A stretch of 22,727 bases of DNA from positions 1 to 22,727 of the IMG/VR virus record IMGVR_UViG_3300023442_000188; one strand, written 5' to 3'. This DNA is from a virus. Positions 5,188-22,727 of this stretch are shown here, piece after piece. The notes under the pieces are model-generated. The model did not search any database. It saw only the letters and a list, made by a program, of their open reading frames with translations, and was not told the origin of the DNA. How positions within the stretch are numbered: the stretch's first letter is position 1; each line of letters starts with the position of its first letter. The translations under genes were made by a program, and so were the position numbers.

Positions 5188-7187
5188 TATTTGCGGTAGC
5201 GCTGACCGAACCAGCCGTCGGCGTCGGTCGGCAGGCCCGCCGCCCACGCTGGCGGGACGCGCATGATGCCGATCAGATCATCCAGGCGCTCCTGCCCCCG
5301 GCCCTCGGGGGCGAGGGCGAGTATCTCGTCGTGGACCGTCAGCACGATCTCGTGACCGTCGGCGTCCGCGCGCAGCATGGCGTCCGCCATGACGTCGCGC
5401 GCCACGGCCTGGGTAACATTCTCGGCCAGTTTGCCGCCGTAGGTGCGCAGGCGCTCCCATTTGCGGGTGTACTGGTTGATGCCCATGTAGGAAATGTCTT
5501 GGGTGCCGGGGCGGTCGGCGTTCGCCACCAGGCGGGCGTCGCGGTAGACCAGCGCCCGGCCACTCGGCAGCCGGATGATCAGGTGTGCGCCGAACATGCC
5601 GACGCGCAGCCGCCCCACGGCCACGACCTTCGTCGGGTTCTGAATTACCTGCCGTGCAGCCCGGTCCAAATCCCACCAGAATGAAACGATCTTCGGGTTG
5701 GCCTCGCGCCACGCGGCCTTGATGCCTTCGGCCTGTTCCTCAGGCAGTGTCAGGCCGTAGTTGGCCGCCATCGTCAGGAACGCGCCCTTGCCGCCGCCGA
5801 AACCCAGCGCCAGAATGGCGACCTTGCCGATCTGGCGCTGCGCCTTGGTGACGTCCTTGGGGTCAATGCCGTAAATCCCGGCGGCGGCGATGACGTAGAT
5901 GTCCTCACCCCGGCGGAACGCGTCCAGCGTGCCGATCTGTCCGGCCAGCCACGGCAGGACGCGGGCCTCGATCTGAGAGAAGTCCGGCACGACCAGCACC
6001 TTGCCGGGCGGGGCCACAATGCAGCCGCGCAGGCAGGACGCCACCACCCCCATGATCGGGCCGAACAGCGCCTCGATCTGGTCGTCGGTTGCGCCACCCT
6101 CAATGAGCGTGATCGCGGCGCTCACGTTCGAGATCGAACCGCGCGGCATGTTCTGCATCTGGATCAGCCGTCCAGACCAGCGGCCCGTCCGGCTGGCCCC
6201 GTAATACTGTAACATCCCGTGAACGGTGCCCGTCGTCCGGCGCACCGGGCAGGCGTCCAGCATGGCGTTGAGCTTGGCTGCGGACGTCCGGGCGGCGTCT
6301 AGGCGCAGCCCCAGCCCTTCCCGTTCGAGGCCGACGCACGCCGGATCGTCCAGCCGCGCCTCGACCGTGGCCCGCCGCAGGTTGTCCTCGGGGTAGCCGT
6401 GCGCCTGCAACCATGTCAGGAATGCCTTGTGGGCGTTGATCGACTTGACCGCGCCCCCGGTCAGGCGCTGCACGTCCTGCGTGGCCCGATTGGCCGCGCG
6501 CACTGACACGCCCTTGAGCCGTTCGACGAACGTGTAATCCACCGTCACGCCACGGTCGTTTATCCGGTGATCGAGCAACCAGACCTGTCGCTCGGCGTCC
6601 GGGTGCGATGGGATCGCGCTCTTGATCGCGCGCTCGACCACCACGTCCTGGCGGCAGTATTCGACGAGGCGGTCCAGCTTGTCCGGCTCGTCCTCGTGCC
6701 ACCATGTTACCTCTCCGGTCACGGCGTTGACGGTGCGCGGCTTGCAGAGCTGCATCATCAGGCGGTGGCCCTCTTTGTCCTTCTTGTGCCGGACGCCAGC
6801 CGCCGGGGCAGCGGCGTCCAATGACAGGGGCAGCCCCCAATACGCCGCCGTGGCCATCGTATCGTGAAGCTGCGTCCGGGACAGGTCCGACGCCGAGGCG
6901 TGCTGTCCGATCTGGCGCAGCAGCGTGTAATTCCAGATTTCGTACTCGAACGCCGCGTTCCACGCGTGGACGGCGTGCATGTTCATAACGTGGTCCAGCA
7001 CGTCCGGGGGAAAGGGTTGCCCCGTAACCCACACCTGCACATCCTCGTCGTCGAATGCGTAGGCCATGCACAGCACCCGCGTCGAGGGGTGCTGTGCATA
7101 CGTCCGCGCGCCAGTCCGGCGCAGGTCAACGAGGCTCGCAGTCTCGAAGTCTATGGACAGGTCAGCCACGGGGCTGGCCGCGCGCAA
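5187..7187 (-). CDS. Family A DNA polymerase with 3'-5' exonuclease domain
   Basis: The protein has 666 residues if begun at the TTG at 7187, which sits seven bases after a perfect AAGGAG; a GTG at 7169 is the alternative. The proofreading domain shows Exo I (D13, E15 in LSIDFETAS), Exo II (N77, E81 in WNAAFEYE) and Exo III (Y177, D181 in YCRQD). The polymerase domain shows motif A (402-410, DFSQIEARV), motif B (R451, K455, G462-F463) and motif C (H619-D620 in VHDE). It is the phage replicative polymerase. In motif B the position of Taq F667 or E. coli F762 appears to be L459, a residue that affects sugar selection. No 5'-3' exonuclease domain is present. The start overlaps the 60-aa gene upstream. 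Confidence 0.95.
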   Translation of the reverse strand: MRAASPVADLSIDFETASLVDLRRTGARTYAQHPSTRVLCMAYAFDDEDVQVWVTGQPFPPDVLDHVMNMHAVHAWNAAFEYEIWNYTLLRQIGQHASASDLSRTQLHDTMATAAYWGLPLSLDAAAPAAGVRHKKDKEGHRLMMQLCKPRTVNAVTGEVTWWHEDEPDKLDRLVEYCRQDVVVERAIKSAIPSHPDAERQVWLLDHRINDRGVTVDYTFVERLKGVSVRAANRATQDVQRLTGGAVKSINAHKAFLTWLQAHGYPEDNLRRATVEARLDDPACVGLEREGLGLRLDAARTSAAKLNAMLDACPVRRTTGTVHGMLQYYGASRTGRWSGRLIQMQNMPRGSISNVSAAITLIEGGATDDQIEALFGPIMGVVASCLRGCIVAPPGKVLVVPDFSQIEARVLPWLAGQIGTLDAFRRGEDIYVIAAAGIYGIDPKDVTKAQRQIGKVAILALGFGGGKGAFLTMAANYGLTLPEEQAEGIKAAWREANPKIVSFWWDLDRAARQVIQNPTKVVAVGRLRVGMFGAHLIIRLPSGRALVYRDARLVANADRPGTQDISYMGINQYTRKWERLRTYGGKLAENVTQAVARDVMADAMLRADADGHEIVLTVHDEILALAPEGRGQERLDDLIGIMRVPPAWAAGLPTDADGWFGQRYRK

Positions 7188-7344
7188 TACGGCGCTCCTT
7201 CTGGACTATGGATTGCAGCCGCGCGGCAATCGCGTCGCGCAACTCGGCAGTCCAGCGCAGGCGATACAGCTCGTTTTCGAGCATGTCCTCGGCATATTGT
7301 TCATAGCGGATTTGCTCAAGATCGTAGTCGTCCAGTTTAGCCAT
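7162..7344 (-). CDS. Small hypothetical protein (60 aa) upstream of the polymerase
   Basis: It begins at the ATG at 7344, after a purine-rich GTAGGGGG leader, 11 bases beyond the stop of the MazZ-like gene. The protein is mostly helical and charged (LDDYDLEQIRYEQYAEDMLE; ELRDAIAARLQSIVQKERR) and ends inside the polymerase frame. Its last codons carry the ribosome binding site of the polymerase, so the two are probably coupled. No family recognised. Confidence 0.55.
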   Translation of the reverse strand: MAKLDDYDLEQIRYEQYAEDMLENELYRLRWTAELRDAIAARLQSIVQKERRIARGQPRG

Positions 7345-7355
7345 GATGCTGCCCC

Positions 7356-7775
7356 CTACGCCGCGAACCGGACGGCGGCATGGCCTTCTTCTGGCGGCGT
7401 AGGGTCCGGGGCAGTAGCCCGGTCGTCAAACTCCGTCATGCCGCGCTCCTCGTAGGTGATCAGGAAGGCGATGCAGCAGCCCGCATGCCACAGATGCGAG
7501 TAGCCGGTCTCGTCGTCCAGGTCGCCCAGCAGGAAATTTTTGGTGGTCGGCCCACGTCCGCCCCACCACGCCCACATGTGGCGCATCAGCGCGCCGAACA
7601 CGCGCGACCACTTGATGCCGTTCTCCCAATTCCGATCATCGTATTTCGTCGCTCCGAACGTCAGCACCTCGGCGACGGCCATCAACATTTCAGGGGGAAG
7701 CAATTCCAGACGTATCTTCCCGCCGTCGTCCTTGCGTCCGGGGGCACGTGCGCGTGCGCAATCCTCTTTTTCCAT
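7356..7775 (-). CDS. MazZ-like dATP/dGTP pyrophosphohydrolase (DUF5664 family)
   Basis: The 139-residue protein has an ATG start at 7775 with AAGGAG seven bases upstream. Family hallmarks are DGGKIRLELLPPEML (17-31), AVAEVLTFGATKYDDRNW (33-50), ALMRHMWAWWGG (62-73) and DLDDETGYSHLWHAGCC (85-101). Acidic residues E36, D85, D88 and E89 are probable metal ligands of an all-helical MazG-type site. Members cut dATP or dGTP to the monophosphate and pyrophosphate; MazZ of 2-aminoadenine phages is one of them. The gene lies between the ssDNA-binding protein and polymerase genes, fitting a dNTP-pool role. Many phages without modified DNA also carry this family, so the exact substrate is unknown. Confidence 0.8.
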   Translation of the reverse strand: MEKEDCARARAPGRKDDGGKIRLELLPPEMLMAVAEVLTFGATKYDDRNWENGIKWSRVFGALMRHMWAWWGGRGPTTKNFLLGDLDDETGYSHLWHAGCCIAFLITYEERGMTEFDDRATAPDPTPPEEGHAAVRFAA

Positions 7776-7798
7776 GAGTGTTCTCCTTCAGTAACGTT

Positions 7799-7830
7799 GC
7801 CCTGCGCCGGTTTGCACCCCGGCGCAGGGC
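7799..7830. other. 12-bp perfect stem-loop between two replication genes
   Basis: GCCCTGCGCCGG (7799-7810) pairs perfectly with CCGGCGCAGGGC (7819-7830) around an 8-base loop. It lies in the 70-bp gap between the DUF2815 gene and the MazZ-like gene. On the minus (transcribed) strand it is followed by AACGTTACTG, not a U-run, so it is more likely an mRNA-processing, stabilising or attenuating hairpin than a strong intrinsic terminator. Confidence 0.6.
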
Positions 7831-7845
7831 GTTCACGGACGTGCC

Positions 7846-8484
7846 CTAGAAGGGCAGGTCGTCCGCGCTGGCACCGGACCCGCCCGTGGAGGGAGCGGAC
7901 GCGTCGATGCCCAGGGCTTTGAGCTGGTCATCGTCAGCGTTGGCGAACGCCCGATTAGCCGACTGCTTGCCGTCCAGGCGCGGCATGTCCTCCTTGACGA
8001 TCTGGACGTGTTCCAGACCGAACGACACCCCGGCATTGCCGTTGCTGTCGTAAGCGAACGCCCGGACAGTGGCCCGCGCAAGCTGCCCGGCGAACACGTC
8101 CCCGGGGACAACGATCTTGTCTCCTTGCAAGTTCACCACGTCCGGGCGGGACGCATACTGGCCCTCGCCCTGTGACCAGGGGGAAATGTAGGTTTCGCCT
8201 TCCTCGAAACCATCGTAGTCTTTCTCGCTGGCGTCGCGGAACGGCAGCCGCAGCTTGCGGACAAACGCCGGGTCGGACGCCTTGGCCGACCCCCATTTGT
8301 CCTCAATCGCGGCGTGGACCGCTTTGCGCAGGTTTTGGTAGGCGGTCGATCCAGTCCCGCTCTCGTCGAACAGCAGGATGCACGAGTAGCGCGCTTTGGC
8401 CTGCGGGTTCTGCTTGTTCTTGCGCGGCTCGAACAGGACAGGGAAGCAGAGCGTCCCAATAGGGGTCAGAGTAGTGTTTGCCAT
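7846..8484 (-). CDS. DUF2815 phage single-stranded DNA-binding protein
   Basis: The 212-residue protein starts at the ATG at 8484, preceded by AAAGGAAA. The N-terminal TPIGTLCFPVLFEPRKN then KARYSCILLFDES, and the later DVFAGQLARATVRAFAYD and GVSFGLEHVQIVK, are typical of DUF2815, an OB-fold family related to T7 gp2.5. The last 40 residues are low-complexity and end ADDLPF, the acidic tip with a terminal Phe that SSB proteins use to recruit partners. It would coat ssDNA during replication and recombination. It has its own upstream promoter-like region at 8518-8546. Confidence is high for family and moderate for the role. Confidence 0.88.
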   Translation of the reverse strand: MANTTLTPIGTLCFPVLFEPRKNKQNPQAKARYSCILLFDESGTGSTAYQNLRKAVHAAIEDKWGSAKASDPAFVRKLRLPFRDASEKDYDGFEEGETYISPWSQGEGQYASRPDVVNLQGDKIVVPGDVFAGQLARATVRAFAYDSNGNAGVSFGLEHVQIVKEDMPRLDGKQSANRAFANADDDQLKALGIDASAPSTGGSGASADDLPF

Positions 8485-9371: not shown

Positions 9372-9641
9372 TCAGGATTTACTCACCAGCGCCCAATCAT
9401 CAGCCAGGACATCACCCATCGACGGCTGCCAGACCGATACCGACCCGTCGGGAAGGTGGATGTCGATATGCGGACGATAGGTCACGTCCGTGCCGTCGCC
9501 CAGGATCGACCGCAGCGGCTCGCGGTTCACCTTGAAGTTGCTGCCGTTGACGTAAAAGACGAACATGCCTTTTCCGTTCCAGCCTTTGCGGGTGAGGCGA
9601 TGCCCGATCCTCAGCATTTCGAGTGCGTGTCCGAACAACAT
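9372..9641 (-). CDS. tad2: Tad2-family (DUF2829) anti-Thoeris protein
   Basis: The 89-residue protein has an ATG start at 9641 after AAAGGAAAC. It carries the whole DUF2829 pattern: FGHALEMLRIGHRLTRKGWNG at the N-terminus, GMFVFYVNGS, a PHIDIHLPDGSVSVWQPS segment, and a C-terminal D-L-A-D-D-W-A-L-V. Tad2 proteins are phage 'sponges' that bind the cyclic ADP-ribose-type signal made by Thoeris TIR proteins and so stop NADase activation. The length is normal for the family. It is placed inside an early replication operon, so it would be made soon after entry. The family call is strong; the actual ligand here is inference. Confidence 0.85.
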   Translation of the reverse strand: MLFGHALEMLRIGHRLTRKGWNGKGMFVFYVNGSNFKVNREPLRSILGDGTDVTYRPHIDIHLPDGSVSVWQPSMGDVLADDWALVSKS

Positions 9642-9652
9642 AGTGTTTCCTT

Positions 9653-10954
9653 TCAGGTTTTGGTCATGGGTTGGGTAGTCTGGCCACTGGCGAACGCGTC
9701 CCTGCCGGAGCGCCGTTTGATGCGCTCGCGCGGATCGCCCTCGGACGCCAGCGTCAGCCCGGACGACTGTTTGACCACGTGCGGCGCGACGTGCTGGTCG
9801 TACAGCTTCTTGCCCAGGTTCTTCTGGACCTGCGCCGGGGACAGCACTGAAAGCCGGGCGAATTTGTCAGGGGGCAACCCCTCGTGTTCTAGCGTTTCCA
9901 TGATCACGTCCGGGTCGTCAGCCCACATCCGGCGTTTGCGTTTGGGCACGAGCTTGTGTCCGGGGATGGTGCGCTGGGCTTTGGCACGTTCAAGGGCCAG
10001 CTCCTTCACGGCCTTGAGCCATGGCGTGATGATCTCGATCTTGTCCAGCAGATCACCCAGCGCCTGATCGGACAGTTGCTTGTCCGGCAGCGCCGCGCCC
10101 GGATCGGTCGGGGCCGGGATGTTGGCAATCGGAGTGTTCATAAACGCTTGACGCGCGGCTTGGAACGCCGTGTCGCGCGGCTTCGTGCAATGTGGCAGCG
10201 CCGGGCACCAACGGCAGTGATCGCCTGCACGCAGCGTCTTGCCGTTGTCCGCCATGGCGCGCTCGACGCCGGAGTATAGCACTGTCCGGGACCAATCCCG
10301 CACCTCGGCGTAGGTGTAGCTGGCGCGCCGGACGGGGCCATCCCTGTGGAATGCACGCGGTTGCACGATCACCAGATCGACGTCCTTGACGCCGCTGAAC
10401 ACCAGCCCCGCCTGCGCACAGAACGGCGCGAGGCTGTCAGGGTGCGCCACGCCAGCGCCGTAATAGAGAAGCTGTGTGTTGCCCTGCACATTCACAGGCA
10501 CACCCCGCCCGAATTTGAGGTCGACGACCATCAGGTGCTGCGTGTCCGGGCGGTATGCCACGCAGTCCGCCGTGCCAAACAGGTCGATGTCCAGCGGCGG
10601 CAACCCGTCCCAATGCACCTGGGGCGAGACCCGGCGTTCCAACACAATGACGTAGCCCATCGCCTGGAGACCCCGAACGGTATCGACGTAGACCTGCACG
10701 GCCTCAGCGAAATCCTCGTCCACGGTGAACTCGAACCCGTCCGCGCGCATGGTCAACCCCAAAAAATCACTGGCGTTCTTGCCCGTCGTAATACAGACCT
10801 CGCTGATTGAGTGTGCCAGCGTGCCCTCGGCGGAGAACACCGTCGAGTGGCGCTGGCCGTCGTCCACGTCCGCAGATAGCTGGAAGCTGCCCGGACACGC
10901 CAGCAGGCGGGCGGACGAGGACGCGGCAAACGTTGAGTGCTTGGTAGGTGCCAT
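9653..10954 (-). CDS. DUF2800 PD-(D/E)XK nuclease with Fe-S-type cysteine cluster (Cas4/AddB-like)
   Basis: The 433-residue protein starts at the ATG at 10954. The nuclease core shows AEGTLAHSISE (H48, E52), GTADC (D130), and VVDLKFGRG (D145, K147), i.e. H...D...D-x-K. Four cysteines, C20 in LLACPGSF and C247, C250, C256 in GDHCRWCPALPHC, match the split cluster that holds a 4Fe-4S centre in Cas4 and AddB nucleases. It is expected to degrade or resect DNA ends during phage recombination or replication. It lies in the same run as the DUF2815 protein and SNF2 helicase, a combination repeatedly seen in phage replication modules. The C-terminal 100 residues are helical and basic. Confidence 0.88.
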   Translation of the reverse strand: MAPTKHSTFAASSSARLLACPGSFQLSADVDDGQRHSTVFSAEGTLAHSISEVCITTGKNASDFLGLTMRADGFEFTVDEDFAEAVQVYVDTVRGLQAMGYVIVLERRVSPQVHWDGLPPLDIDLFGTADCVAYRPDTQHLMVVDLKFGRGVPVNVQGNTQLLYYGAGVAHPDSLAPFCAQAGLVFSGVKDVDLVIVQPRAFHRDGPVRRASYTYAEVRDWSRTVLYSGVERAMADNGKTLRAGDHCRWCPALPHCTKPRDTAFQAARQAFMNTPIANIPAPTDPGAALPDKQLSDQALGDLLDKIEIITPWLKAVKELALERAKAQRTIPGHKLVPKRKRRMWADDPDVIMETLEHEGLPPDKFARLSVLSPAQVQKNLGKKLYDQHVAPHVVKQSSGLTLASEGDPRERIKRRSGRDAFASGQTTQPMTKT

Positions 10955-10964
10955 GGGGGTTTCC

Positions 10965-11273
10965 TCAGGAATGCTCGGCTTCGTAGTGGAACAGCAACTC
11001 GTCTATCGCCCAAGCGACGCTGCGGTCGATGGGCACCCACAGCCCGATCTCCTTGATCGGCTCGGAAGGGACGTTCTCGTCATAGAACCGCAATTTCTCG
11101 TGGCGGTATTCGGTAGTGCGGATGGGCGGCGGGTCCGCCGGAACCTGCTGGGCGGTGACAGGGGCCGAGAGTATCGACGGCACCTGCGCCACTGTAAAAA
11201 CTGGTGTCCGGTTGGTGACGCGACGGCCCGCTTGCGGACCGCCGATCAACACCCCTTCGTAGCCCTGTCCCAT
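10965..11273 (-). CDS. Small conserved phage protein (102 aa), unknown function
   Basis: The start is the ATG at 11273, overlapping the upstream stop as TGATG. The N-terminus GYEGVLIGGPQAGRRVTN and the later YRHEKLRFY and IGLWVPIDRSVAWAIDELL resemble a widespread class of small phage proteins that begin with Y-x-G-V-I-x-G-G-P. The middle 40 residues are Pro/Ala-rich. No enzyme motif is seen. A longer frame exists upstream to 11405 but it covers the neighbouring gene and lacks a good ribosome binding site. Confidence 0.6.
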   Translation of the reverse strand: MGQGYEGVLIGGPQAGRRVTNRTPVFTVAQVPSILSAPVTAQQVPADPPPIRTTEYRHEKLRFYDENVPSEPIKEIGLWVPIDRSVAWAIDELLFHYEAEHS

Positions 11274-16243: not shown

Positions 16244-18778
16244 TTGACAAATATCGAAAAAACAGTGACCGCGACCGCGACCGCGACCGCGACCGCGACC
16301 GCGCCAGCGCACGTTACCGTGCGTGAGTTTCTAGAGACCATCTACGAAGGCCCGGATGTGGTCGATAAACAGGTCTGGACCTGCGGGTTTCGGACGTTCC
16401 CTGGGCGCTGGACCGGGGAAATGGGTTTGGCCGGGCTGGGGAGCCTGCCGCCGGACGAGGGCGATCAGTATTTTTGTATCGGGGAACTGGCCGAAGGGTC
16501 AACGAAACGCTCGAACGGTAACGTAATTCGGCAACGTGTTATCGTCGCCGATGATGTCGGGACGAAAGCGCCCGCAGCGAGCTGGGAGGCGCTATTCGGG
16601 TTGGGATTTCCGCTGCCGACATTTCGGATCGAGACCTCGCCGGGCAACCAGACGTTTGGCTGGGTACTGGACACGCCCATCTGCGAGGACACGGACGCCG
16701 GGCGGGCCGACTGGAAGGCGCTGGGGCTGTTCCGGGCGTGGCTCGGTGAGCGCGGCCTAACCGACCCGGGCGTTGCGGACCCGGCGCGGTACATCCGGCT
16801 GCCTGCGGGTTGGAACTCGAAACCGAAATACGTGGCCGAGGGAGGTCGCCCGCCCCTGGTGCGGCTGGTGGACTGGCGTCCGGGGCATGTGGTCTCGCTG
16901 GACGACATGGGCCGGACGCTGCTCGGGGACAACTGGCGGGAGCTGGACTTTCCCGTCGGCGCTATGACGTCCGCGCAGCTCAATCAGATGGGCGGCGCAC
17001 TGACGCGGACGGCGGACATGAACAACCCCGAACCGATCATGTTGCTGGCTCGGGAGTTGGGTCTGAACCCCGTGCAGGAACGCGCCGGGGTGGTCTCGGC
17101 CACCTGCCCGAATGCGGCGGCTCACTCCGCTGACGGACGCGAGGACACCGGGTTTGCATTCCTGGGGAACGGCCTGATGGAGTGCCACCATGGCTCGTGC
17201 CAGCACCTGTCCACGCCCGCGTTTCGGCAGATGATGATCGAGCAATTCGACGCAAACATCGCCGGGCGGCTGGCGCTGGGCATGGACATCCCGGCCTCGG
17301 ACGCGGGAGAGTTTCTCGCGCGGGAAGATATGCGCCGCCACGGTGCGCTGTCCGACGAAGGCGCGGCACTGGAAGTGGCCGACGAGATCGCATCGCGCCA
17401 GCACCAAGCGTCCGAGAAAGCGGAACAGACCCGCGAACAGGCGCTCGGCGCACTAGCGGAGCGCTATGTGTGGGTCTACGGGGCCGGAATGTTTTTCGAC
17501 ACCAAGGACAGGCGTCTGTACGGGCCGAAGGATTTTTGCTGCCTGCGGGACGTATCGGCGGTCATCCCCGTGGGCGACAGCGGCAAGAAGGCCGCTAACC
17601 ATGTGATCCTGAACCGGAAAGACACCCGCTATGCGCTGGGGACGACATATCTGCCGGGCGAGGATCGCGGGTTGGTGGACACCGTGTCCGAGAGCGGCCT
17701 GGTCGCGCCCCATGTGAACCTCTGGACCCCATCCGGGCTGGGCCTGCGGGACGGCTCGCCGGACGTCTGGCAGGAAATCATGGCCTATGTGCTGTGTGAC
17801 CGGGCCTACCGTGAGCGGTTCATTGATTGGATGGCGTTCGTGGTCCAGAACCCACTACTGCGGTCGCCGATCATCCCGGCGCTGTTCTCCCGGCAGGGCA
17901 TCGGTAAGGACATGATGCTGAAACCGTTTTTGGCAATACTCGGTGTGCAGAACGTCGAGAGCCTGACGCCCGCACGTCTGCAATCCGCTTTCAACGACTG
18001 GCTGCACAAGCGGTTGTTGGTGCTACAGGAAGTCCGGCTGGACGCCAGCGGTGCCGCGTACAACCGGATAAAAGACCTGACTGGCACGTCCGACGTCGCG
18101 TGGGTGACGGTCAACGAAAAATTTCGCCGTCCTTACACGATCCCGTTCAGGGGCGTGTTCGTCGCCCTGTCCAACAACCTTGACGCGCTGCGGGGCATGG
18201 AACATGACGACCGGCGGTTTGCGCCCTATATCTCGCCCGCCAAGCGCGGGTCGTTGGCGTTCTATGACCGGATCAATCGTGGCCTGAGCGATGTCGCCGA
18301 ACAGGAACGGGCGCATCGGTTCCTGCTGGAGCGCGACCTGAGCGCGTTCTCGCCGTTCGAGCCGTTCCCGGACGCGGACGGGGCGCGGGCCACGATCCTG
18401 TCCGAAGGGCTGAGTGCGCCTGCACGGGCCGCGTTCGACGCGCTGACGCAGGGTACGTTCGCCGGGCGGAAGTGGCTGACCATGGCCGAAGTGATGGCCG
18501 AGTTGCAGCTATCCAACAACCGCATGGTGAGCAACCACCTGACCCACCACAACGTGCGCGAGGGCATGATGGCGGCGGGTTGTGTTCCCGCCAACGCGGG
18601 CAAGCCGATCAAGGTCGATGGCAAACCCACGAAGTTGTACGCTGGGCCGGGCTGGCCGGACACCCGGATGCGGGACGACGCGGTGGCCCTGCTCGCCCCC
18701 CGGCAGATCGCCGACAGCTATCTGGCGGACGTACAGGACGCGACAAAGCGGGCCGCCGACAAGCTGCTGCGTCCCTGA
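16244..18778 (+). CDS. Primase-helicase (primase-like N-terminus, zinc finger, DUF5906 SF3-type helicase)
   Basis: The 844-residue protein begins with a TTG at 16244, eight bases after GAGAGGA; no ATG fits. Residues 9-22 are a Thr-Ala repeat encoded by six GACCGC units. Residues 40-210 resemble the catalytic part of RepB/archaeo-eukaryotic-type primases (VIVADDVGTK with D103-D104; PARYIRLPAGWNSKPKYV). C288, H294, C314 and C319 form a zinc-binding knuckle. The C-terminal ATPase has Walker A SRQGIGKD (549-556), Walker B-like LLVLQEV (591-597) and the family segments VTVNEKFRRPYTIPFRG and VALSNN. It should unwind DNA and prime synthesis at the phage origin, a candidate for which lies directly downstream. 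Confidence 0.88.
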   Translation: MTNIEKTVTATATATATATAPAHVTVREFLETIYEGPDVVDKQVWTCGFRTFPGRWTGEMGLAGLGSLPPDEGDQYFCIGELAEGSTKRSNGNVIRQRVIVADDVGTKAPAASWEALFGLGFPLPTFRIETSPGNQTFGWVLDTPICEDTDAGRADWKALGLFRAWLGERGLTDPGVADPARYIRLPAGWNSKPKYVAEGGRPPLVRLVDWRPGHVVSLDDMGRTLLGDNWRELDFPVGAMTSAQLNQMGGALTRTADMNNPEPIMLLARELGLNPVQERAGVVSATCPNAAAHSADGREDTGFAFLGNGLMECHHGSCQHLSTPAFRQMMIEQFDANIAGRLALGMDIPASDAGEFLAREDMRRHGALSDEGAALEVADEIASRQHQASEKAEQTREQALGALAERYVWVYGAGMFFDTKDRRLYGPKDFCCLRDVSAVIPVGDSGKKAANHVILNRKDTRYALGTTYLPGEDRGLVDTVSESGLVAPHVNLWTPSGLGLRDGSPDVWQEIMAYVLCDRAYRERFIDWMAFVVQNPLLRSPIIPALFSRQGIGKDMMLKPFLAILGVQNVESLTPARLQSAFNDWLHKRLLVLQEVRLDASGAAYNRIKDLTGTSDVAWVTVNEKFRRPYTIPFRGVFVALSNNLDALRGMEHDDRRFAPYISPAKRGSLAFYDRINRGLSDVAEQERAHRFLLERDLSAFSPFEPFPDADGARATILSEGLSAPARAAFDALTQGTFAGRKWLTMAEVMAELQLSNNRMVSNHLTHHNVREGMMAAGCVPANAGKPIKVDGKPTKLYAGPGWPDTRMRDDAVALLAPRQIADSYLADVQDATKRAADKLLRP
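16267..16302 (+). repeat. Six tandem GACCGC units in the primase-helicase gene
   Basis: Six perfect GACCGC copies encode the Thr-Ala repeat near the N-terminus of the primase-helicase. Copy-number change would be in frame. Confidence 0.9.
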
Positions 18779-19055
18779 AATCACCCCAAACAGTTCACGG
18801 ACAGCCATCCCGGCCCCCGAAAGTGGCCGGTCGAAGGCGCAGCCCCACCCGATCTTGGGTTACGACGATCTGCCGGTTACATGGCGTTACGAACATACGT
18901 GTAACTAATTTTGGCCAATAAAATAAGGCGTAATTACCTCTAGTTACTCAGTTACACTACTTTTTTTTTAATAGAAAAAGGAAATATATAAGAATATAAG
19001 GGTATTATTTATGAGATATAGATAGGTAGTATATATATAAAGGAGGGCCGAAAAA

Positions 19056-19070
19056 CCGTAACCCGTAACT
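19056..19070 (-). repeat. 15-bp iteron CCGTAACCCGTAACT, copy 1
   Basis: This exact 15-mer recurs at 19129-19143 in the same orientation. Each contains two GTAAC units seven bases apart. CGGTTACGG at 19107-19115 lies between them in the opposite orientation. These are candidate binding sites for the replication initiator. Confidence 0.6.
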
Positions 19071-19128
19071 TTTCACGTAAGTCTATGAAATGTTAGGGCA
19101 AATTAGCGGTTACGGCTGATTTGCCTTG

Positions 19129-19143
19129 CCGTAACCCGTAACT
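19129..19143 (-). repeat. 15-bp iteron CCGTAACCCGTAACT, copy 2
   Basis: Exact second copy of the 15-mer at 19056-19070, located 43 bases before the end of the HGG-motif gene. Confidence 0.6.
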
Positions 19144-19185
19144 ACTGGGCGATTTCAGCGGTTTTTCAACACTTTTTCGGGCATT

Positions 19186-19881
19186 TTAGGGAATTAATCC
19201 CAATTCGCGAGTTTTTGCGACGGCCTGCCCCCAAAACGAGTAGTTTCCCGTCTCCTGGAGGATTTGCCACCCGGACGCCAGCTCGAACGCGAGGTTCCGC
19301 AGAGCTGCCATCCGGCGGGCGTCCGCCGTCGAGCGTTGCTCGCCTGTCTGGCGGAGTTCACGCATGGCGCGGTTGCTCTCGTGGATCGCGCTGCTGACGG
19401 CGACGAACGCCTCGCTATGCGCCAACCCCTCGGGCAGATCGCCGCGCGCGGACATCCGGCGGAGCGTTCCCCAGGCATAGCGTCCACGGTCCGCGTCCAC
19501 GCAGTTGTCGCGCAGGCGGCGCAGCATCTGGATGCGTGAGCCGCCGTGAGTGAAGCACTTGTCGTATTCCCGGACAGCGGGCCGCGCGCAGCGCTGTCCG
19601 TTGCGCCGGATGAACGTGCACCGCGCCATGTTGACCGCGCCTTCGCCCTTCACGAACAGCGTGCGTTTCCGGGCCTCGGCCAGCGCGGCCAGCGAGTTCG
19701 GGTGCCCGCGCCAGCCGCCTTTGTTCTTGTGGGTCTTGTCCTTGATCACGAGGCGCGGACGTTTGTAGTGCTTCGGCTTCGGAGCGCTCGGATCGACTGT
19801 CCTCTCGATGATGGTTCTGGTGGCCGCTTTCAGCTTCTTCAGTTTCTCGGCCTCGCGCTGTTCGGGATTACCGTAGGGCAT
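19186..19881 (-). CDS. HGG-motif phage protein with a Cys3His zinc-binding knuckle
   Basis: The start is the ATG at 19881, ten bases after AGGAG; the frame continues upstream to 20199 but through repeat-rich intergenic sequence. The 231-residue protein has a basic N-terminal 80 residues (AEKLKKLKAATRTI; HYKRPRLVIKDKTHKNKGG). It then has C88, C98, C109 and H112 in ARCTF...GQRCARPAV...KCFTHGGS. The C-x-n-C...C-x-x-HGG knuckle is found in many uncharacterised phage proteins. It lies alone on the minus strand between the candidate origin and the rightward ATPase operon. No function is known; DNA or RNA binding is plausible from its charge. Confidence 0.65.
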   Translation of the reverse strand: MPYGNPEQREAEKLKKLKAATRTIIERTVDPSAPKPKHYKRPRLVIKDKTHKNKGGWRGHPNSLAALAEARKRTLFVKGEGAVNMARCTFIRRNGQRCARPAVREYDKCFTHGGSRIQMLRRLRDNCVDADRGRYAWGTLRRMSARGDLPEGLAHSEAFVAVSSAIHESNRAMRELRQTGEQRSTADARRMAALRNLAFELASGWQILQETGNYSFWGQAVAKTRELGLIP

Positions 19882-19967
19882 GGGAAGGTTACTCCTGTCT
19901 GGCGGGTTGTTGGTTGTGTTGTTTGTCTGCCCGCAGGATAGCGTCCCCGGACGCAGGACGCTACCAG

Positions 19968-20000
19968 CGGGTTGTTGGCGGGTTGTTGGCGGGTTGTTGG
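19968..20000 (+). repeat. Three tandem 11-bp repeats (CGGGTTGTTGG)
   Basis: CGGGTTGTTGG occurs at 19968, 19979 and 19990 head to tail, with a fourth copy at 19903. It lies upstream of both divergent genes and could bind a regulator or have arisen by slippage. Confidence 0.75.
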
Positions 20001-20096
20001 AGTGACCTCCCAGGGGCTGTCCGGCGGCGTCCGGGCGCGAATTTCCCGCCCCTACGCGGGTGCGCGGTCTTTTCCCCCATTTTGTCTGCGGACGTG

Positions 20097-20125
20097 TTGA
20101 CAAAACAGACAGACAGGCGATATGT
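20097..20125 (+). promoter_or_regulatory. Promoter of the CobS/CobT-like operon (TTGACA-17-ATATGT)
   Basis: TTGACA at 20097-20102 is followed by AAACAGACAGACAGGCG and ATATGT (20120-20125); TATGTC with an 18-base spacer is an alternative -10. TTTTGTCTGC lies just upstream, so the -35 box is bracketed by two halves of the CAGAC element as at 5160-5187. The ATG follows about 50 bases downstream. Confidence 0.6.
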
Positions 20126-20173
20126 CTGGGTCCGGGCGATCCTGCCCGACAAACCAGACGAGAGGAAAACACA

Positions 20174-21681
<1,508 letters not shown>

Positions 21682-21685
<4 letters not shown>

Positions 21686-22727
21686 GCCGGGCGAGTAAAC
21701 CAGTTACCGCGCAATCAATCTATGATTTTGCCGGACGCCTGCCCTATGGCGATTTCGTCCGGGCAGCGGAGACCACAGTGCAAGCAATGATGGACTGCCG
21801 CGAGGGTGAGGAGCCGGTAAAGGTGACGGTGACGGCGCAGGGGGGCCAGACCGCGCGAATTAGTGCGCTTAGTCCCCAACTATATCGGGTGGACCTACCC
21901 AGTTATCCAGCTGAGACGCAGGTGTCGGCACAGTTCGCCCGGCGGCTGTTGGGCTATCTGATCCACGAAACGTTGCACGCGATCCACACAAGGATGGGTG
22001 ACGTGGCGGACCGGCTGACCACCACCGCGTCCGAGGCCGGGGTTAACCCCGGCACGCTGCACGGGCTGCACAACGTAATTGAGGATTACGCGATAGAGCG
22101 GTTGGGGTGCGACCCGGACGCGCTGGCCACGGGCGCAGCGCCCGGCCTGCTGGGCGCGCTGAATGACGAGGTGATAGCGCGTGGCACGGTAGCGGCGTGC
22201 CGACGCGCGGCGCAGAGCGGCGACCCGGTAGCGCAGGCGCGGGCATACGTGCTGGCGCGGATCAATCGCCACGGACGCCAGCGGACGCCAGCACTAGACG
22301 CGGTAGCGGATGCAGCGGCCAGCGAGATTGCGCCGAGCGTGCGTGGGCTGGTGGACAGCGCGCTAGATGCGATTGACCGGTACGAGTACGATTACCGGGG
22401 CCGGATGGGCGCGTCGGCGCGATTGCTGGCGCAGCTAACTGGCGATCAGGATCAGGATCAGGATCAGACTGGCGATCAGACTGGCGATCAGACTGGCGAT
22501 CAGGATCAGGATCAGGATCAGGATCAGACTGGCGATCAGGATCAGGATCAGGATCAGACTGGCGATCAGGACGGCGATCAGGACGGCGATCAGGACGGCG
22601 ACCAGGACGGCGATCAGGATCAGGACGGCGACCAGGACGGCGATCAGGACGGCGATCAGGGTCAGGACGGCGATCAGGACGGCGATCAGGGTCAGGACGG
22701 CGATCAGGGTCAGGACGGCGATCAGGA
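21682..22727 (+). CDS. CobT-like protein (HExxH-type N-domain, giant acidic DQ repeat), 3' end outside window
   Basis: The ATG overlaps the ATPase stop by four bases (ATGA), so translation is coupled. The open frame runs to the window edge without a stop. The N-domain has HETLH at 95-99 followed by NVIEDYAIER at 131-140, a pair that recalls phage and cobaltochelatase CobT-type proteins (H-E-x-x-H then N-x-x-E-D-x-x-I-E). From residue 253 the protein is a repeat of DQ, TGDQ, DGDQ and GQ units for at least 96 residues. CobT proteins have an acidic linker before a C-terminal VWA domain, which should follow beyond the window. It probably works with the CobS-like ATPase. Whether the HExxH is a peptidase or just a fold marker is unknown. 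Confidence 0.75.
22438..22727 (+). repeat. Hexanucleotide/dodecanucleotide tandem repeat array (GATCAG family), continues past window
   Basis: From 22438 to the last base the sequence is built only from GATCAG, ACTGGCGATCAG, GACGGCGATCAG and GGTCAG units, with a few GACCAG variants. All units are multiples of six, so changes in copy number keep the reading frame. The units shift from ACTGGC types in the first half to GACGGC and GGTCAG types in the second, as expected of repeated local duplication. About 26 GATC sites fall within 285 bases. Confidence 0.9.

Follow-up and report, generated by a model that had tools for sequence, protein, structure and literature searches.

We found that an array of GTTAC pentamers and the primase-helicase gene immediately upstream of it very probably constitute a Rep-ori of the SaPI/PICI type in a temperate phage, with the pentamers presumably being read by the C-terminal domain of the primase-helicase. 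The stretch analyzed, referred to as the window, is a whole IMG/VR virus record of 22.7 kb and represents one viral fragment. This reading would assign an origin and its initiator to an uncultured temperate phage.

The window encodes an integrase, an XRE repressor, DNA polymerase A, an Enc34-type ssDNA-binding protein, an exonuclease, and a SNF2 helicase, and a virion gene end is apparent. Scans of the window for Rfam families and tRNAs gave no matches. We additionally observed a 15-base motif, TTGTCTGTTTTGTCA, with 10 copies in the window at up to three mismatches compared to 0.2 expected (positions 874, 5158, 5175, 8530, 13202, 14239, 14327, 16190, 20098, and 20147). The copies are located mostly in or near intergenic gaps, one of them just upstream of the primase gene, and the motif is probably the operator of the phage repressor. 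Towards the end of the window (20060-22725), a gene for a MoxR/CbbQ-type AAA ATPase is followed by an ORF with an acidic repeat tract, an arrangement resembling the cobalt-chelatase-like pairs of phages. Tandem repeats of 12 nt at 22429-22725 encode a D/Q/G-rich tract in a large ORF at the contig end.

The first-pass annotation had proposed an initiator-bound origin downstream of the primase-helicase on the basis of 11 GTTAC/GTAAC pentamers next to an AT island. All 11 were recovered between 18859 and 19142, GTTAC starting at 18859, 18876, 18886, 18943, 18951, and 19109 and GTAAC at 18901, 19058, 19065, 19131, and 19138. The 15-mer CCGTAACCCGTAACT, described as an exact repeat, is indeed identical at 19056-19070 and 19129-19143 on the plus strand. 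The estimate of about 0.6 copies by chance agrees with ours at equal base use; in 5,000 dinucleotide-preserving shuffles of 18850-19145, which leave some sources of repeats unmodeled, the mean was 1.26 and the maximum 7, compared to 11 observed. Across the whole window, GTTAC occurs 26 times with 21 expected and thus shows no excess, so that the signal lies in the clustering of the sites. The description of the island as nearly pure A/T overstated its composition. A/T reaches 85% in the best 60-bp segment (18961-19020) and 82% across 90 bp (18952-19041), although no other part of the window is as A/T-rich and the island has the lowest G+C at every segment length tested.

The array lies, as described, between the primase-helicase gene and a gene with an HGG motif. 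The two genes are convergent, the stop codon of the primase gene being at 18778 and the HGG ORF ending at 19186, and the array begins 80 bp past the former. The HGG-motif gene (19186..20199, minus strand), which borders the intergenic region, has no Pfam or PHROG match. Within the array, six sites form a left half (18859..18955, unstranded; order +++-++, spacings 17, 10, 15, 42, and 8) and five sites a right half (19058..19142, unstranded; order --+--, spacings 7, 44, 22, and 7), with a distance of 107 across the center in the same notation, and the halves are thus mainly opposed. Counted outward from the gap, the left sites have offsets of 0, 8, 50, 65, 75, and 92 and the right sites of 0, 7, 51, 73, and 80; the right half is approximately the mirror image of the left, with the sixth, outer site absent. 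The gap itself (18956..19057, unstranded; 102 bp, 25% G+C) holds the lowest-G+C 60-mer and 80-mer of the window and is the proposed unwinding element. GC skew, which had been suggested as a check of the origin, does not change sign at the array and is uninformative for a fragment of 22.7 kb.

The proposed initiator is a primase-helicase of 844 amino acids (16244..18778, plus strand), assigned by Pfam, PHROG, and PDB profile comparison. It shows a weak RepB_primase match at residues 121-209 and a DUF5906 helicase domain at residues 547-658. In Pfam, PF19263 was matched with an E value of 3.7e-15 and PF16793, under its cut-off, with 3.4e-4; the PHROG match is 1156, DNA primase. When the helicase half was used together with the proteins of the other loci as a profile, the solved structures 6k9c, 7ola/7om0 (“DNA primase”), 7pds (“similar to D. 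nodosus vapE”), and C962R were found. We take 6k9c to be the NrS-1 primase, and 7ola/7om0 and 7pds are presumably staphylococcal island proteins. The PF19263 match and the profile matches to 7ola/7om0 and 7pds place the protein among initiators with an SF3/D5-type helicase. No close relative of the whole protein was found in IMG/VR, and the only one in bacterial genome contigs is encoded at locus L122 (Oricola).

The C-terminal domain (18371..18775, plus strand) is the part proposed to bind GTTAC, based on its position, the precedent of a characterized helicase (PMC7581432), and the comparison of loci L041, L156, and L122. In the window protein, this domain gave no match to DNA-binding families; some related C-termini match the RFX and Pox_D5 families, whereas the window's own does not. 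Structure prediction from an 11-row alignment resulted in pLDDT values mostly below 50 in this domain, and prediction from the single sequence in a mean of 44. The predicted fold was set aside because its confidence was too low.

Raw counts of long GTTAC and GTATC patterns in IMG/VR were uninformative, since they are lower bounds and many matches are tandem repeats, and only adjacency and geometry were used. At least 120 IMG/VR contigs contain the 14-mer CCGTAACCCGTAAC; many of the matches represent chance or other repeats, and several belong to dense arrays in two orientations. Among the matches listed, we chose 38 GTTAC arrays that have at least 7 sites within 300 bp, include both orientations, and lack hexamer periodicity. 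An initiator-type helicase gene ends within 600 bp of 14 of these 38 arrays, nearly all at 0-40 bp, and for 19 no helicase was recognized in the flanking DNA examined. The helicases preceding GTTAC arrays belong to the DUF5906 (L123, L202, L237, L250, L265, L268), DUF927 (L007, L042), and Prim-Pol/AAA_25 (L210, L217, L231, L271, L272, L171) classes. They fall into five BLAST groups without detectable similarity between groups; as near-copies exist within one helicase group, the number of independent cases is below 14. The control word GTATC gave the same picture, its arrays lying 8-40 bp past genes of the DUF5906 or AAA_25 type. Origin-like GTATC arrays were observed in L281 (5720-5980), L381 (2390-2660), and L311 (4690-4930). 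Arrays directly after independent initiator helicase genes support the initiator-bound origin that had been proposed for the window.

Relatives that keep the helicase and lack the repeats had been named in advance as evidence against this origin, and such phages exist among distant relatives: phiM5, RDJL3, Fanboy, and MW202496 (~25% identity) retain a DUF5906-type protein without a clear GTTAC array downstream. Fast turnover of the pentamer would explain this distribution. Our literature search, covering mainly openly accessible papers, did not reveal GTTAC iterons with such a function.

A census covered DUF5906 genes from bacterial genomes, sampled blind to the pentamer. For each gene, the most over-represented pentamer between -30 and +450 bp of the stop codon was scored against dinucleotide shuffles (p ≤ 0.01). 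As this is the best of several hundred pentamers per locus, the same choice was applied to the shuffles, and equal-length stretches inside the same genes served as control. Significant arrays were found at 25 of 58 genes compared to 3 of 58 in-gene controls (batch 1, with the window left out, 10/28 compared to 3/28; batch 2, 15/30 compared to 0/30), and more than half of the genes have no significant array. The words include GCAAA, GGCAC, GTGCA, CGTCC, CCGTA, AGGTG, ATCCA, GGACA, and more. GTTAC accounts for only 2 of the 25 significant arrays (L156 and L405; as the scored stretch of L156 was positioned manually to cover its array, this case is not blind) and is therefore one word of many; a special status of GTTAC is ruled out by these numbers. 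Helicases with up to ~60% identity over their last 200 residues can carry different words, which suggests that the word turns over quickly.

The layout of the arrays recurs. The fullest ones consist of two inverted sets of about six sites each, with spacings of ~9, 11, 22, 33, and 43 bp and a central gap of 70-115 bp, and the window array shares this two-set, inverted, and helically phased layout, which lends further support to the origin reading. The order +++-++ with spacings of ~9, 11, 23, 43, and 9 is found in L042 (DUF927), in L202 and L237 (both DUF5906), and in L422, where the word is CCGTA. The GTATC arrays of L281 and L381, located 8 bp past DUF5906 genes, are perfect six-plus-six mirrors of another form. 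In 22 census arrays, spacings peak at 7-12, 18-23, 31-34, 42-46, and 51-57 bp. The resulting periodicity of ~11 bp (R of 0.65 compared to a null maximum of 0.25) was evaluated against random site placement, and short-unit duplication could add to the 9-bp peak; restriction to spacings of at least 15 bp, which partly handles such duplication, gave an R of 0.52 compared to 0.38 for the null. Spacings of 41-46 bp occur in 11 census arrays compared to 8.0 expected, which is not a significant excess, and in 11 of 13 arrays of the viral set, which was preselected by word, where the excess is significant (null maximum 10). The halves are inverted in 13 of the 16 arrays with a clear gap. Arrays comprise 6 to 15 sites; 12 sites or more were counted in 7 of the 22 census arrays, and six plus six is therefore the full form rather than a universal rule. 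The geometry was first noticed and then tested on the same loci.

It is conceivable, though on balance we would not expect it, that DUF5906, DUF927, and Prim-Pol/AAA_25 helicases have one origin design in common, namely inverted half-arrays of about six pentamers with one pentamer per subunit, in which the geometry is kept and the word is exchangeable. Spacings would be stereotyped (~9, 11, 22, 43, and 9 bp), often with one flipped site as in +++-++. Under such a common design, the geometry would persist and the word change because the hexamer sets the former and a swappable C-terminal domain the latter. The scheme across words and helicase classes appears to be less covered in the accessible literature and rests partly on selected arrays. 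If the geometry holds, the head-to-head placement of two ring helicases on double-stranded DNA would become directly testable. Origins of numerous phages and mobile elements could also be searched for from sequence alone, as opposed pentamer sets 0-500 bp past the stop codon of DUF5906, DUF927, and Prim-Pol/AAA_25 genes.

Three loci bear on the role of the C-terminal domain. In L041, 13 GTCCC sites come directly after a DUF5906 gene. A leftover segment lies ~1 kb away from this gene, and its end by eye resembles the C-terminal domain of the L123 and L156 primases; a GTTAC array comes next, and both arrays have a duplicated stretch of ~100 bp beside them. The region (9497-10970) comprises two tandem array units and looks like an origin cassette swap in progress. 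In L156, where the primase gene ends ~300 bp ahead of the GTTAC array, a small ORF that stands by itself precedes the array and encodes a sequence 46% identical to the C-terminus of this same primase. This free-standing ORF of ~83 codons (2340-2588, within 2253-2780) has the primase gene, six GGATGCTCTC-type repeats, and the GTTAC array around it, and its stop codon falls within a GTAAC site. The L122 protein has the N-terminal primase part in common with the window protein but a different C-terminal half, and its locus lacks a GTTAC array. This locus (5881-8361) appears as a natural domain exchange, with GCGTAGGT-like repeats downstream. Taken together, the C-terminal half and the array appear to belong together.

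We infer that the array functions as an origin and is recognized by the C-terminal domain; a pair of hexamers, the melting step, and the direction of unwinding are proposed by analogy with characterized systems. The primase-helicase encoded immediately upstream would recognize GTTAC via its C-terminal domain, with one hexamer assembling on each inverted half-array of about six sites, whose spacings would hold the sites on related helix faces. Melting of the intervening A/T-rich gap by the two hexamers would follow, with unwinding of the DNA in both directions, and the N-terminal primase domain would prime synthesis.

Other functions of the array appear far less plausible. Were it a packaging site (cos/pac), it would be bound by the terminase small subunit and not by the primase-helicase. 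Weaker GTTAC clusters of 5-8 sites do lie upstream of terminase genes in one phage family (L023, L045, L080, and others), and terminase-type genes are found near arrays in L069, L094, and L027/L123. The L123 array, however, is located 38 bp past a DUF5906 gene as well as upstream of late genes, so that nearness to a terminase gene does not discriminate. Moreover, the strongest arrays start 0-40 bp past helicase genes of several families, the DUF5906 census revealed the same adjacency with other words, and no terminase gene was recognized in the window, which together make packaging most improbable. We give equally little credence to an operator array, through which a phage repressor or other regulator would bind GTTAC and control the primase or the HGG gene. 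The sites are short and clustered between genes, and the phage encodes an XRE repressor; but the array is flanked by the ends of two convergent genes, upstream of neither, no sigma-70-like promoter was found at the array, and TTGTCTGTTTTGTCA, given its copy number and its copy just upstream of the primase gene, is the better candidate for an operator.

A further alternative retains the origin but has it read by a separate phage or host protein that recruits the helicase. A common third-party binder could explain why the same pentamer is found beside unrelated helicase families, and in L156 the free-standing ORF that resembles the C-terminal domain lies ahead of the array. We consider this very unlikely, as the pentamer varies between related helicases and the low share of GTTAC in the census is what one would predict for helicases that each read a word of their own. 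In addition, no shared accessory gene was recognized beside the arrays in a look that was not systematic.

Recognition by the primase-helicase itself would be in line with known systems. At the putative origin of SCCmec, the helicase Cch2 uses its C-terminal domain to bind a direct-repeat region just past its own gene, where the 5-nt iteron is AAGTG (PMC7581432). The window likewise has 5-nt iterons just past the helicase gene, and in Cch2 it is the isolated C-terminal domain that binds. The SCCmec system differs in its word, in having three iterons in a 23-bp direct-repeat region, and in its separate primase, and Cch2 is a Cch-type helicase as opposed to the DUF5906 primase-helicase of the window. 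The closest solved structure by profile (6k9c, E value of 1.4e-35) joins a primase to a DUF5906-like ring helicase. The recognition sequence of the phage NrS-1 primase-polymerase is 8 nt long, is read by the N-terminal part for priming, and is present in only two copies per genome; an iteron array is not described (PMC7102993). L405, a proteobacterial locus with a DUF5906 gene, resembles the window in having GTTAC in two inverted sets of six, starting within ~10 bp of the stop codon. Unlike the window, its sets have the opposite polarity and its gap is less A/T-rich, and BLAST detects no similarity between the two proteins over their last 200 residues. Replicons of the P4 type have their iterons in ori as well as in a separate crr region; the 22.7-kb fragment contains only one GTTAC array.

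The closest correspondence in layout is with SaPIs and PICIs. For SaPIs, PMC7581432 describes, from work it cites, that two hexamers of Rep appear to bind the origin located downstream. Origins of E. coli PICIs consist of an A/T-rich region between two iteron sets, and a rep-ori segment drives plasmid replication (PMC6092414). The window has the same order, with a helicase initiator gene and, directly after it, a candidate origin in which two groups of short iterons surround an A/T-rich region; its iteron is GTTAC, and the likeness to PICI origins concerns the layout. Unlike these satellites, which are small, carry an AlpA-like regulator, and lack a full phage gene set, the window is a fragment of a temperate phage with its own polymerase and other phage genes. 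The proposed origin is PICI-like by anatomy, but owing to this gene set the element is not a PICI. Overall, the window probably carries a further instance of a known Rep-ori replicon type and not a novel type.
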